A DNA stretch of 26,795 nt, from positions 1-26,795 of IMG/VR virus record IMGVR_UViG_3300008459_011086; one strand, written 5' to 3'. A program made the position numbers and the translations under genes. The notes under the pieces are model-generated. The model did no database searches and had not been told where the DNA came from. It saw nothing but the letters and a program-made list of their open reading frames with translations. Shown piece after piece: positions 4,014 through 26,429 of this stretch. Each line of letters begins with the position of its first letter. Position 1 is the stretch's first letter. The DNA comes from a virus.

Positions 4014-4493
4014 TTAACAATTAACTCTAGCATCATCACAAGCAGTACCACAACTTGAAGCATCATATCCTAAACAATAAGAATAACAAGGTGGGGTAGG
4101 TGATGGTGATGGTGATGGGGATGGGGTAGGTGTTGGAGTTGGAGATGGTGTCGGTCCAGGTGATGGTGCAACTGGGGATGGGGATGGAGTTGGTGTTGGT
4201 GTTGGTGTTGGTGTTGGTGAGGGGGTTGGTGTTGGTGTAGGTGTTGGTGAAGGTGTTGGGGCAGGACAAGAAGTTATTGAAATATCTGTATGGTTATTAC
4301 ATATTCCTGTAGATTCAACCCTAACAGAAGTAGCATTATCAGGAACATTATACATTGCATATCCTGCTAATAAAGATGCTCTAGATACTCCCGTAACTAA
4401 GGGACAATCATACCCAGTAACATCACTATAAATGTTAAAAAGACCTGTATCTGCCCCAGCAGTTGATAATGTTATGGTTATAAGACAAGGCAT
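4014..4493 (-). CDS. Putative virion surface protein with Pro-Thr-Pro-Ser linker and Cys-rich tail
   Basis: The 159-residue protein has three parts. Residues 1-78 form a small beta-rich domain with [16 protein letters not shown] and VRVESTGIC blocks. Residues of about 79-136 are an almost pure PTPTPSP linker. Residues 137-159 form a Cys-rich end ([24 protein letters not shown]-like, with five Cys). The layout of folded head, stiff proline rod and disulphide-rich tip resembles that of the 514-residue protein just upstream, although the sequences differ. Such rods are common in appendage proteins of Bacteroidetes phages. It probably decorates the tail or capsid. The linker DNA is a simple repeat and may change length. 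Confidence 0.7.
4092..4262. repeat. GGTGTT-type simple repeat coding a PTPSP linker (159-residue protein)
   Basis: The plus strand reads as degenerate GGTGTTGGTGTT/GGTGATGG hexamers, including a run of pure GGTGTT units near 4191-4220. On the coding strand these are alternating proline and threonine/serine codons. The pure run is a likely site for slippage. It is related to, but distinct from, the 45-base repeat in the neighbouring gene. Confidence 0.8.
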
Positions 4494-4532
4494 TTTTTAT
4501 TTATATATTTTTAATTATTTTATAATTTTTAT

Positions 4533-6077
4533 TTATGCTGGTCCTCCACATGACACACATGATGCTGATGGAGTTGCTGTGAAATTAGTTCCATTTCTTG
4601 TAAATTCTCTATAATTAACCCCATCAGATAACCAGAAAGTTCCATTATTACTTACTTCTGTATCAAAACATGATTGACTGCTTGAATTTATTGTTATACC
4701 TGTGCATAAACATAAAGTTGCGGTTCCACTAAAAGTTAGATTTACATTAGTACATCCAGGAACAGCGTTACAAGCATCAGAAGATGATTGCGCTGAGAGG
4801 CTAAATGTTGAAGGTGATGGTGTTGGTGTTGGTGACGGCGTCGGAGAAGGTGTTGGTGATGGTGTTGGTGTAGCTGGTGTTGGTGTTGGTGATGGTGTTG
4901 GCGACGGTGTTGGCGACGGCGTTGGCGACGGTGTTGGTGTAGCTGGTGATGGTGTTGGCGACGGTGTTGGTGACGGTGTTGGTGTAGCTGGTGATGGTGT
5001 TGGCGACGGCGTCGGTGACGGTGTTGGTGTAGCTGGCGACGGCGTTGGCGACGGTGTTGGCGATGGTGTTGGTGAAGGTGTTGGTGACGGCGTCGGAGAA
5101 GGTGTTGGTGACGGCGTCGGAGAAGGTGTTGGTGATGGTGTAGGTGTTGGTGCAAAACAACATCTTACAGCAGTTCCTTCTCCTAAATAACAATCAGGAA
5201 CAACATAAATTGTAACTTTTGCCTTGTTACTTCTTAATTGGACTGGGCAAGACCCGGCAATATCTGCTCCTATAGTATACCATATCTGATAAGTACCAGG
5301 AGTGGTTGTTGTTAATACTATAGTTCCACTACTTCCTGTAGCCCAGGAATAGTAAGGAGTTGAAATACTTCCTGATAAACTAATAGAACTAGTATTTAAA
5401 GTTCCTGTTCTAGCATAATCATTAGGTGTAACAGAAACTTTTTTATTAGTTGATGTAGTAAAGTAAGTTGCAGAATTATTTATAGCTACTGGAGGTAAAG
5501 GGAAAATTCTTTGGTAATCCTGATTAGTTATGACTGCTAATCCATGTGCATAATATATGTTTCCTACAAATGTTTTTGATGTTTTAGTATCATATAAATT
5601 TCCATATCCATCATCATTTATATAGTAAGCAGAAGAGGATAACTGGAAGTAATTAGGTAATGCTTTTTCTCCGTAAATTTCTTGATTAATAGCTAATACT
5701 CTAATCCCTTCCATAGCCCCAGTAGGAAAATTAGTAACTAATTTACTATTATCATTGTATATAAAATAAGAAGAAGTTGGTCTCTGTTGAGAAGCAGATT
5801 CGTAATATATTGAACTTGCTAAAGATGAAGTATTTAAAGAAGCAGTATAATCTTGATAGAATAATTGATTTATTTGACTGTAGACTAATCTATCATATTG
5901 ATCTTCAGTAACAGGCTCATAACCAGGATTAAAACTACCTGTAAGGTTAGTTCCATTATATATAGTTAAGTATTCAGATGATGTTGGATACGGACAATAA
6001 GATAAAGTCCATTGCTTATTAGCATGGTAAGGTACAACCGTAACGTCTGATTTGCTTAACTTTTTGAATGATGCCAT
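4533..6077 (-). CDS. Tail fibre/adhesin-like protein with long Pro-Thr-Pro-Ser rod
   Basis: The 514-residue protein has an N-terminal part (1-300) resembling the 312-residue protein upstream: a block around [20 protein letters not shown] and [12 protein letters not shown] matches [13 protein letters not shown] and [12 protein letters not shown] there. A domain with an Ig-like look follows (about 195-295, ending in [12 protein letters not shown]). Residues of about 308-423 are an uninterrupted PTPSPTPSP rod with four ATP interruptions. Residues 424-514 form a Cys-rich C-terminal domain (CNAVPGC, CLC, CVSC). The probable arrangement is an N-terminal virion attachment part, a stiff rod and an exposed tip, which suits receptor binding. 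It starts 7 bases after the 312-residue gene ends. The fibre role is inferred from architecture and position. Confidence 0.75.
4809..5155. repeat. 45-base tandem repeats coding the PTPSP rod of the 514-residue protein
   Basis: The core consists of tandem units of 45 bases (15 residues, each beginning [11 protein letters not shown]), marked on the plus strand by GTAGCTGG at roughly 4869, 4939, 4984 and 5029. Shorter GGTGTTGGTGACGGC-like repeats flank them. Within each unit are 18-base and 6-base sub-repeats. Units differ at silent positions (GGT/GGC, GAT/GAC), so the array has drifted and is not a recent expansion or an obvious assembly error. It is much richer in G+C than the surroundings. 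Confidence 0.85.
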
Positions 6078-21559: not shown

Positions 21560-22075
21560 ATGAAAAAAAGTTTTACACGTGTACCAATTGAGGATGTTCA
21601 GTTCTATATTCGATTAGAACCTGGCGAATCTAATCTTGCTACTCACTTTGCCCTTATGCCTACTACTGATCCGGGGTTTGAAGAGGGATGGGAAGATGTA
21701 GTATACTTAAAAGAACCAGTAATGGATGCTAGCGGTGGTGTAAGAGCAACTGAATATGTGTATGTGCTAGTAAATAAATCGATGCCTGGTATGGTGAAAA
21801 TAGGAATGACTACTGATACTCCAGTAAAACGCGCACGTGATATTAATAGAGCAACGGGTGTTCCTACACCGTGGGTGCCTGTTTGGTCATTAAAGTGTTA
21901 TGCTTCGCGTATACTTGAGCAGCGAGTGCATGAGTATCTGGGTCAATATAGAGTGGCTGAGAATAGAGAAATGTTTAGAATTGATTCAGTAACGGCACAA
22001 CGTGTAATTGAGGAGTTAGGTAAGGATTTTACAAACTGCCTGTTGGCGGAGCGGATTGAACAACATCTCCGTTAA
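21560..22075 (+). CDS. T5orf172/MUG113-type GIY-YIG domain protein
   Basis: This is the only plus-strand gene found (171 residues). Residues 65-155 fit the T5orf172 domain: EYVYVLVNKSMPGMVKIGMT (65-84) is the degenerate GIY-YIG pair, R91 and R93 follow, then TGVPTPW (99-105). ILEQRVHEYLGQYR (118-131) carries the conserved Glu and His, and REMFRI closes the domain. The family occurs in phages and in KilA-N or Bro-type DNA-binding proteins and is thought to act on DNA as a nuclease. Residues 1-64 are not recognised. It uses its own half of the divergent promoter, and its last 47 bases overlap a convergent 58-residue gene. The sequence is slightly less AT-rich than its neighbours, which could mean recent transfer. 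Confidence 0.85.
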   Translation: MKKSFTRVPIEDVQFYIRLEPGESNLATHFALMPTTDPGFEEGWEDVVYLKEPVMDASGGVRATEYVYVLVNKSMPGMVKIGMTTDTPVKRARDINRATGVPTPWVPVWSLKCYASRILEQRVHEYLGQYRVAENREMFRIDSVTAQRVIEELGKDFTNCLLAERIEQHLR

Positions 22076-24892: not shown

Positions 24893-25147
24893 TTAAGCAG
24901 CTACTTCTACCTTTTTAGTTGCTGGGCGACCTCTCTTAATTGATCCACCTGCAGCAATCCTTGCTGCTTGTGCTGCAAGTTTAGCTTGACGTGCTGAACC
25001 TGCTACTGCGGGTCTACCCCTTTTTACTTCACCACCTGCTGCTACACGAGCTGCTCTAGCGGCTAAACGGGCTTGACGTGCCGAACCTTCTACTGTTGGG
25101 CGGCCTTTTGATTTTGGAGTTGTGTTTTCTGTGTTTGTTTTTGACAT
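24893..25147 (-). CDS. AT-hook protein with three GRP motifs
   Basis: The 84-residue protein has 29-residue repeats: KGRPTVEGSARQARLAA (14-30), KRGRPAVAGSARQAKLAA (42-59) and a last KRGRPATKK (71-79). GRP cores lie at 15-17, 44-46 and 73-75. GRP flanked by Lys/Arg is the AT-hook, which lies in the minor groove of AT-rich DNA. The linkers (ARQAxLAAxAARxAAGG) are Ala/Arg helices like those of histone H1-type bacterial proteins. It is very basic and has no other domain. It could compact phage DNA, shield it, or alter host transcription. It is expressed alone, from a full Bacteroidetes promoter to a strong terminator. Confidence 0.85.
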   Translation of the reverse strand: MSKTNTENTTPKSKGRPTVEGSARQARLAARAARVAAGGEVKRGRPAVAGSARQAKLAAQAARIAAGGSIKRGRPATKKVEVAA

Positions 25148-25752: not shown

Positions 25753-26382
25753 TCAACGTCTTGACTTAGGTCTGCCGCGTTTTCCTCCTGAACGTTTCTG
25801 TAAAGCTGCTTTTGCGGCTATCTTCTTCGCTTGAGCCTCTGGTGTGAGAGCTGGTCTTCCTCTTCTTCCTCCTACTTTTGGTGTGGAAACCGTTTTTGGA
25901 ACGGCGGATTTTGGGCGCCCTCTCTTTCCACCTGATCTGGCTTTTGCCTCTGCTTTTAAAGCCTCCTTATGTGCCTTTAAAGCAGGGCTTAACGCGGGTC
26001 TACCTCTTTTACCGTGCTTAGGTTTATTCTCTTTCTCAATCTGCTTCACCTTCTTATCACGTTGTTTTTGTTGTTTTTCTGCTCTACGAGCCATTTTATC
26101 CAACATTTTCTTGTGTTTAAGAACAGCTGGGTGTATAATAACTTGATCCAGGTCGTATGAACGAATGCCTCCACTCACGTCAACAACCTCATAACCGCCA
26201 TTGGGAAAAGTGGGTTTTTCACCTGGCTCATATCGCTTCCAAAGTTCAAAATATAATTTCTTGTCGTAAAAAAATGGTGCTGGGAGTACACGAATACCTT
26301 TTTCCTGTGGAACAAAAATTTCCTCCGTTTCATCATACGCTAGATATGTTCCGTATTGCCATGGTTTTTCTATTACTTTCAT
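25753..26382 (-). CDS. AT-hook protein with N-terminal globular domain and four GRP motifs
   Basis: In the 209-residue protein, residues 1-90 form a globular beta-rich part (KPWQYGTYLAYDETEEIFVPQ, VLPAPFFYDKKLYFELWKRYEPG) that I do not recognise. Residues 91-122 are a charged helix. The rest holds four AT-hooks: GKRGRPALSP (GRP at 127-129), GKRGRPKSAV (155-157), GRRGRPALTP (175-177) and GKRGRPKSRR (203-205), arranged as a duplicated pair 28 residues apart within each pair. Linkers are Ala/Lys helices. The N-terminal domain may bring a partner to AT-rich DNA. It shares the hook type, but not the linker sequence, with the 84-residue protein. A full host-type promoter lies upstream. Confidence 0.85.
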   Translation of the reverse strand: MKVIEKPWQYGTYLAYDETEEIFVPQEKGIRVLPAPFFYDKKLYFELWKRYEPGEKPTFPNGGYEVVDVSGGIRSYDLDQVIIHPAVLKHKKMLDKMARRAEKQQKQRDKKVKQIEKENKPKHGKRGRPALSPALKAHKEALKAEAKARSGGKRGRPKSAVPKTVSTPKVGGRRGRPALTPEAQAKKIAAKAALQKRSGGKRGRPKSRR

Positions 26383-26396
26383 AACTTTGATTTAAA

Positions 26397-26429
26397 TAAA
26401 TTTAAGAAAAAAACTTGGACAAAACAAAA
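26397..26429 (-). promoter_or_regulatory. Bacteroidetes-type promoter of the 209-residue AT-hook gene
   Basis: Minus strand: TTTTG (complement of 26425-26429), 20-base spacer with GTCCAAGTTTTTTT, then TAAATTTA (complement of 26397-26404), 14 bases before the ATG at 26382. Confidence 0.66.

Follow-up and report, generated by a model that had tools for sequence, protein, structure and literature searches.

The window, a stretch of viral DNA of 26,795 nucleotides (positions 1 to 26,795 of IMG/VR record IMGVR_UViG_3300008459_011086), encodes on its minus strand two proteins with repeated AT-hooks, whose genes lie 606 bases apart (Table 1). An initial annotation, made from the letters of the DNA, had put this distance at about 600 bases and had described the larger protein as an N-terminal globular domain followed by a charged helix and four hooks arranged as a duplicated pair, and this description was borne out. 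The GRP cores of the larger protein stand at residues 127, 155, 175, and 203, giving spacings of 28, 20, and 28 residues, and all four read RGRP. When residues 120 to 209 were shuffled, RGRP occurred 0.02 times on average, and four copies appeared in 0 of 20,000 shuffles. The hooks fall into two two-hook units (residues 125 to 159 and 173 to 207) that are 66% identical, linker included, and the segment that precedes them (residues 85 to 124) has by composition a net charge of +10.

Table 1. Genes, protein parts, and promoter-like element discussed in the text, with window coordinates.
Feature	Position	Strand	Basis
Large AT-hook protein gene	25753..26382	(-)	ORF with ATG start, 209 aa; 47 related loci; purifying selection judged from sequence
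N-terminal predicted SH3-like (Tudor/KOW-type) barrel, residues 1-84	26131..26382	(-)	AF2 pLDDT 77-91 over residues 1-90; fold matches; alignments
Charged helix, basic, residues 85-120 (predicted)	26023..26130	(-)	AF2 and composition
AT-hook 1, KRGRPA, residues 125-130	25993..26010	(-)	RGRP invariant, 28 members
AT-hook 2, KRGRPK, residues 153-158, exactly 28 residues past hook 1	25909..25926	(-)	RGRP invariant, 28 members
AT-hook 3, RRGRPA, residues 173-178	25849..25866	(-)	RGRP invariant, 28 members
AT-hook 4, KRGRPK, residues 201-206, exactly 28 residues past hook 3	25765..25782	(-)	RGRP nearly invariant, 28 members
Small AT-hook protein gene, 84 aa, three hooks	24893..25147	(-)	29-residue period; usual partner of the large gene
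TANATTYA box (TAAATTTA), putative phage promoter element	26397..26404	(-)	Upstream of the large gene

The larger ORF belongs to a real gene family and is not a chance reading frame. Scanning IMG/VR with the large protein retrieved 8 loci, and alignments of the N-terminal domain raised the number to 30 and then to 47, each in a viral contig, with identities down to 41%; nearly all members have two to five hooks, and the copy in IMGVR_UViG_3300008113_008697 is identical to that of the window. Every complete member has the same layout: the barrel comes first, a linker or helix next, and the hooks last. Four hooks are the usual number, one member has five, and the most distant members (41 to 51% identity in the N-terminal domain) have two to four, several of them with hooks in the weaker form KGRK or RGRK. 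No relatives were found in 50,697 sequenced phage records or by a pattern scan, with the limited sensitivity of patterns, of 84,980 bacterial and archaeal genomes. In a literature search that covered few subscription journals, nothing turned up on phage AT-hook proteins built in this way, and the family is apparently previously undescribed. As judged from sequence comparison, the large gene is under strong purifying selection: against the closest distinct homolog, dN/dS is ∼0.07 overall and ∼0.03 in the N-terminal domain, rough values given that synonymous sites are near saturation.

In the C-terminal half, the hooks are well conserved and the linkers vary. Across 28 aligned members, conservation is ∼91 to 94% in the hooks versus 45 to 68% in the linkers, with the RGRP cores of hooks 1 to 3 invariant and that of hook 4 nearly so. 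The spacing within a unit is 28 residues in 55 of 55 cases, whereas the gap between units varies from 19 to 25; the members are related, and these counts are not independent events. At ∼41 to 50% identity, the 28-residue gap is present in L072, L078, L080, L081, and L085 and absent in L077 and L082. Such fixed spacing suggests that the two hooks of a unit are held at a set distance. In the AF2 model of the full protein, helices are predicted with moderate confidence at residues 133 to 148 and 181 to 198, inside the units. By our own estimate, a helix of ∼16 to 18 residues spans ∼25 Å, and the two hooks of a unit could reach AT tracts about one helical turn apart.

At the level of residues, the protein has four (K/R)RGRP motifs with flanking K/R, invariant or nearly so among the 28 members. 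The Pfam AT-hook model PF02178 scored 9.6 bits against a gathering score of 17.4 (relatives reached 17.0); with only 13 positions, this model is a weak test, and we therefore say that the protein has AT-hook motifs, not that it is a Pfam member. AT-hooks are established binders of the minor groove of AT-rich DNA. The invariance of the RGRP cores argues that the large protein would bind AT-rich DNA, a well-supported expectation, and that it would do so through the minor groove. An alternative is that RNA or acidic proteins, and not DNA, are the targets of the basic repeats. The hook region is indeed very basic, and SH3-like and KOW barrels are, as general knowledge has it, frequent binders of RNA or proteins, but it is the RGRP core itself that is invariant, beyond mere basic charge, and we regard this alternative as very improbable.

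The N-terminal domain contains motifs that are invariant or nearly so in the family alignments (RVLPA, GG.EV, and D.DQ...HP). AF2 modeling of residues 1 to 115 with 28 sequences (mean pLDDT, 82) yielded seven strands between residues 2 and 83 and a long helix from residue 85, a predicted SH3-like (Tudor/KOW-type) barrel. Barrels of this fold usually bind proteins or nucleic acids, and the one here probably binds a protein. VIA-align placed KOW, Tudor, CAP-Gly, and Agenet chains over residues ∼20 to 89 at Z scores of 5.6 to 6.3, values that are common for small folds and thus indicate a fold class without naming a function. Foldseek against the PDB gave ribosomal L2, SAWADEE, and PWWP domains as top matches (best E value, 0.08) and nothing below an E value of 0.001. 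These three, like the KOW, Tudor, and CAP-Gly chains, have SH3-like folds. The single strong match in BFVD is an uncharacterized protein of an uncultured Caudovirales phage (E value, 1.5e-8; 53% identity), evidently a family member; weaker BFVD matches are small phage proteins, including a gp30.5 and a DUF2158 protein. No sequence library (Pfam, PHROGs, NCBIfam, PADLOC, or PDB sequences) names the domain. The subthreshold matches UPF0227 (E value, 0.025), phrog_1378 (0.045), FCP1 (0.065), the designed protein SAKe6FR (0.009), and Spt5 KOW (1.1) are mutually inconsistent and were set aside. The slow change of this domain is what would be expected of a docking surface. The initial annotation had suggested that it might recruit a host or phage protein to AT-rich sites, and the predicted barrel makes such recruitment plausible.

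In the smaller protein, the three GRP cores follow one another at intervals of 29 residues, with Ala/Arg-rich segments between them. Of 35 contigs with flanking sequence, 33 carry the small gene close to the large one and on the same strand, usually 0.7 to 2.5 kb downstream and, in three distant members, upstream. The small family is the broader of the two: among 18 contigs retrieved with the small protein, 6 also carry the large one, and several long contigs, among them one of 173 kb, carry the small protein without it. In a 179-kb relative (G004), the large and small AT-hook genes are the only ones with repeated [KR]GRP hooks; the same census found no repeated-hook ORF in Flavobacterium phage immuto, nearly the whole record of which was covered, and neither protein was found in immuto, Microcystis phage Mel-JY01, or LR756508. 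The near-constancy of the pair and its isolation in the 179-kb relative support the earlier suggestion of a dedicated pair of DNA-occupying proteins. In two contigs, another small protein with three hooks, diverged from the first, is encoded ∼8 to 10 kb downstream of the large gene (L046:19589-19891 and L047:18008-18358), which indicates that the small family has paralogs.

Shortly upstream of 13 of the 17 gene starts on the minus strand between 19979 and 26646 lies a TANATTYA box (shuffles: mean, 1.1; maximum, 6), a probable phage promoter element that we take to resemble the −7 element of Bacteroidota promoters. GGCA-type motifs occur further upstream in many relatives. Most small genes of the region seem to have their own promoter, as fits early genes, and, judged only by position and promoter-like boxes, the large gene would be expressed early. 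A leader that contains TCCAAGTTTTT, with a G/T-rich stretch before it, is common to three genes (upstream of 25147, 25425, and 26382), including the two AT-hook genes. We considered the TCCAAGTTTTT leader as a regulatory target of the hooks and rejected it; it is confined to the closest relatives, and the TANATTYA box is the broader signal. Elsewhere in the window, a T5orf172 (GIY-YIG-like) ORF at 21560 to 22075 on the plus strand runs opposite to its neighbors and occurs in either orientation in relatives, and two minus-strand ORFs at 4014 to 6077 carry long PTPSP-type repeats and are probably tail related and stalk-like.

This setting bears on the possibility that the large protein is an aid to genome condensation or packaging, a basic protein coating phage DNA before or inside the virion. 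Such a role would suit the AT-rich phage DNA and a net charge of +25 over 85 residues, but the gene stands among small genes, each with a promoter-like box, and not among capsid genes. A match of the N-terminal domain to a virion protein, which according to the initial annotation would have reduced the hooks to a packaging aid, was not found in Pfam, PHROGs, NCBIfam, PDB sequences, PDB folds, or BFVD, although a missing family match is not proof of absence from the virion. We consider the packaging role improbable.

Among isolated phages, the closest in the baseplate wedge protein are Flavobacterium phage immuto (44%) and Microcystis phage Mel-JY01 (41%), and the family loci have GC contents of 28 to 37%. 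The 179-kb relative also encodes, at 84421 to 87693 (L146:6421-9693), a 1,090-aa outer membrane β-barrel protein with a carboxypeptidase-regulatory-like domain, which is like host TonB-dependent/SusC-type receptors, a kind common in Bacteroidota. In light of the nearest isolates, the GC content, and this receptor-like gene, the host of these phages is likely a member of the Bacteroidota.

We propose, with a probability of roughly 60%, that the product of the large gene is a DNA-binding phage adaptor built along HMGA/CarD lines, in which the hooks grip AT-rich DNA and the barrel docks a partner protein. Each two-hook unit, through its fixed 28-residue spacing, would hold two neighboring AT tracts; the connection of the units is looser and would allow them to bind at differing distances or on two separate duplexes. 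The partner would dock on the N-terminal SH3-like barrel, which is the best conserved of the folded parts, and the protein, together with the small three-hook protein, may coat or bend AT-rich DNA and bring the partner there. Candidates for that partner are host RNA polymerase, a nucleoid protein, or the protein itself; the examples of CarD and MotB lead us to favor, speculatively, the polymerase or a nucleoid protein of the host. The phage probably makes the two proteins as a tool with which to seize its own DNA or that of the host. AT-hooks have been studied mostly in eukaryotes, with CarD as the bacterial showcase, and a barrel with strictly spaced hooks beside a second hook protein is a compact, testable system for how phages grip AT-rich DNA. 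The hosts concerned are probably Bacteroidota, whose take-over by phages is little understood. From the fixed spacings of 28 and 29 residues follows a sharp prediction of how far apart the AT tracts in bound DNA should lie. We rate the interest of the system as moderate; it would be greater if the barrel were shown to recruit RNA polymerase.

Several known proteins share parts of this build. Like HMGA and other proteins with the AT-hook motif (PF02178), the large protein has several RGRP cores with basic flanks, whereas its within-unit linkers are of fixed length and predicted to be helical; to our knowledge, HMGA has no folded N-terminal domain. The hypothetical protein WWT39479 of Mel-JY01 (L103:729-1721), from a phage related at the baseplate (41%), likewise has four HMGA-like RGRP hooks, but these have an exact 26-residue period and lie in the middle of the protein, with a further C-terminal part behind them, and no relative of the N-terminal domain was found in the Mel-JY01 record.

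T4 MotB, an early phage DNA-binding protein, combines a KOW-like N-terminal domain with a predicted OB-fold; it binds DNA nonspecifically, alters the binding of H-NS to DNA, and raises burst size two-fold (PMC7827196, PMC6070864). It resembles the large protein in layout, as a phage protein with an N-terminal KOW/SH3-like domain, predicted in ours with KOW chains among the fold matches, and a second predicted nucleic acid-binding part (PMC7827196), and differs in that this second part is, in our AF2 model, made of hooks and helices. Regarding kinship with MotB, the large protein had no significant family match in PHROGs. MotB suggests another role, in which both AT-hook proteins would contend with nucleoid proteins of the host for AT-rich DNA and so antagonize host silencing, as proposed for MotB and H-NS. 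Genomes of 28 to 37% GC would be natural targets of AT-specific silencers, but the hooks would bind phage DNA equally well, and we hold this role to be possible but unlikely.

A parallel in build is CarD of Myxococcus xanthus (CarD_CdnL_TRCF), in which a Tudor-like N-terminal domain binds RNAP-β, four RGRP hooks bind the AT-rich minor groove, and the hook domain alone is inactive (PMC4374960). In both proteins, four RGRP hooks follow a small N-terminal barrel, which is Tudor-like in CarD and, in ours, predicted to be of that type. This order of parts, the AT-rich leaders and the promoter-like box that recurs ahead of most genes in the region, and a possible phage sigma factor gene nearby (a weak match; E value, 0.016) would suit a strict CarD-type transcription cofactor, in which the barrel would sit on RNA polymerase, either of the host or modified by the phage, and the hooks at AT-rich phage promoter leaders. 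However, the CarD family model PF02559 was matched by 0 of 28 members and by nothing above the cutoff in 9 phage records (a control matched in 12 of 14 genomes), and the segment before the hooks is basic here and acidic in CarD; a strict cofactor of this type is in our view possible but unlikely. More generally, membership in the CarD, KOW, or MotB families fails at the sequence level where it was tested. No CarD chain was among the VIA-align matches listed, which excludes nothing. The N-terminal domain of CarD is five-stranded, and the phage protein has an AF2 barrel with SH3-like matches in the Z range common for small folds. In CarD, the hooks lie in a disordered tail, whereas in the phage protein they form fixed 28-residue units with predicted helices; CarD is myxobacterial, and the large protein comes from a phage. 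Returning to our adaptor proposal, a bolder version, which we think doubtful, is that of a two-protein phage chromatin system in which rigid hook-helix-hook units would serve as rulers on AT-rich DNA and the barrel would recruit host RNA polymerase; phages would then have arrived independently at a factor like CarD. As AT-hook DNA-binding proteins, these phage proteins are of a known kind; what is new is the combination of parts and the strict hook spacing.
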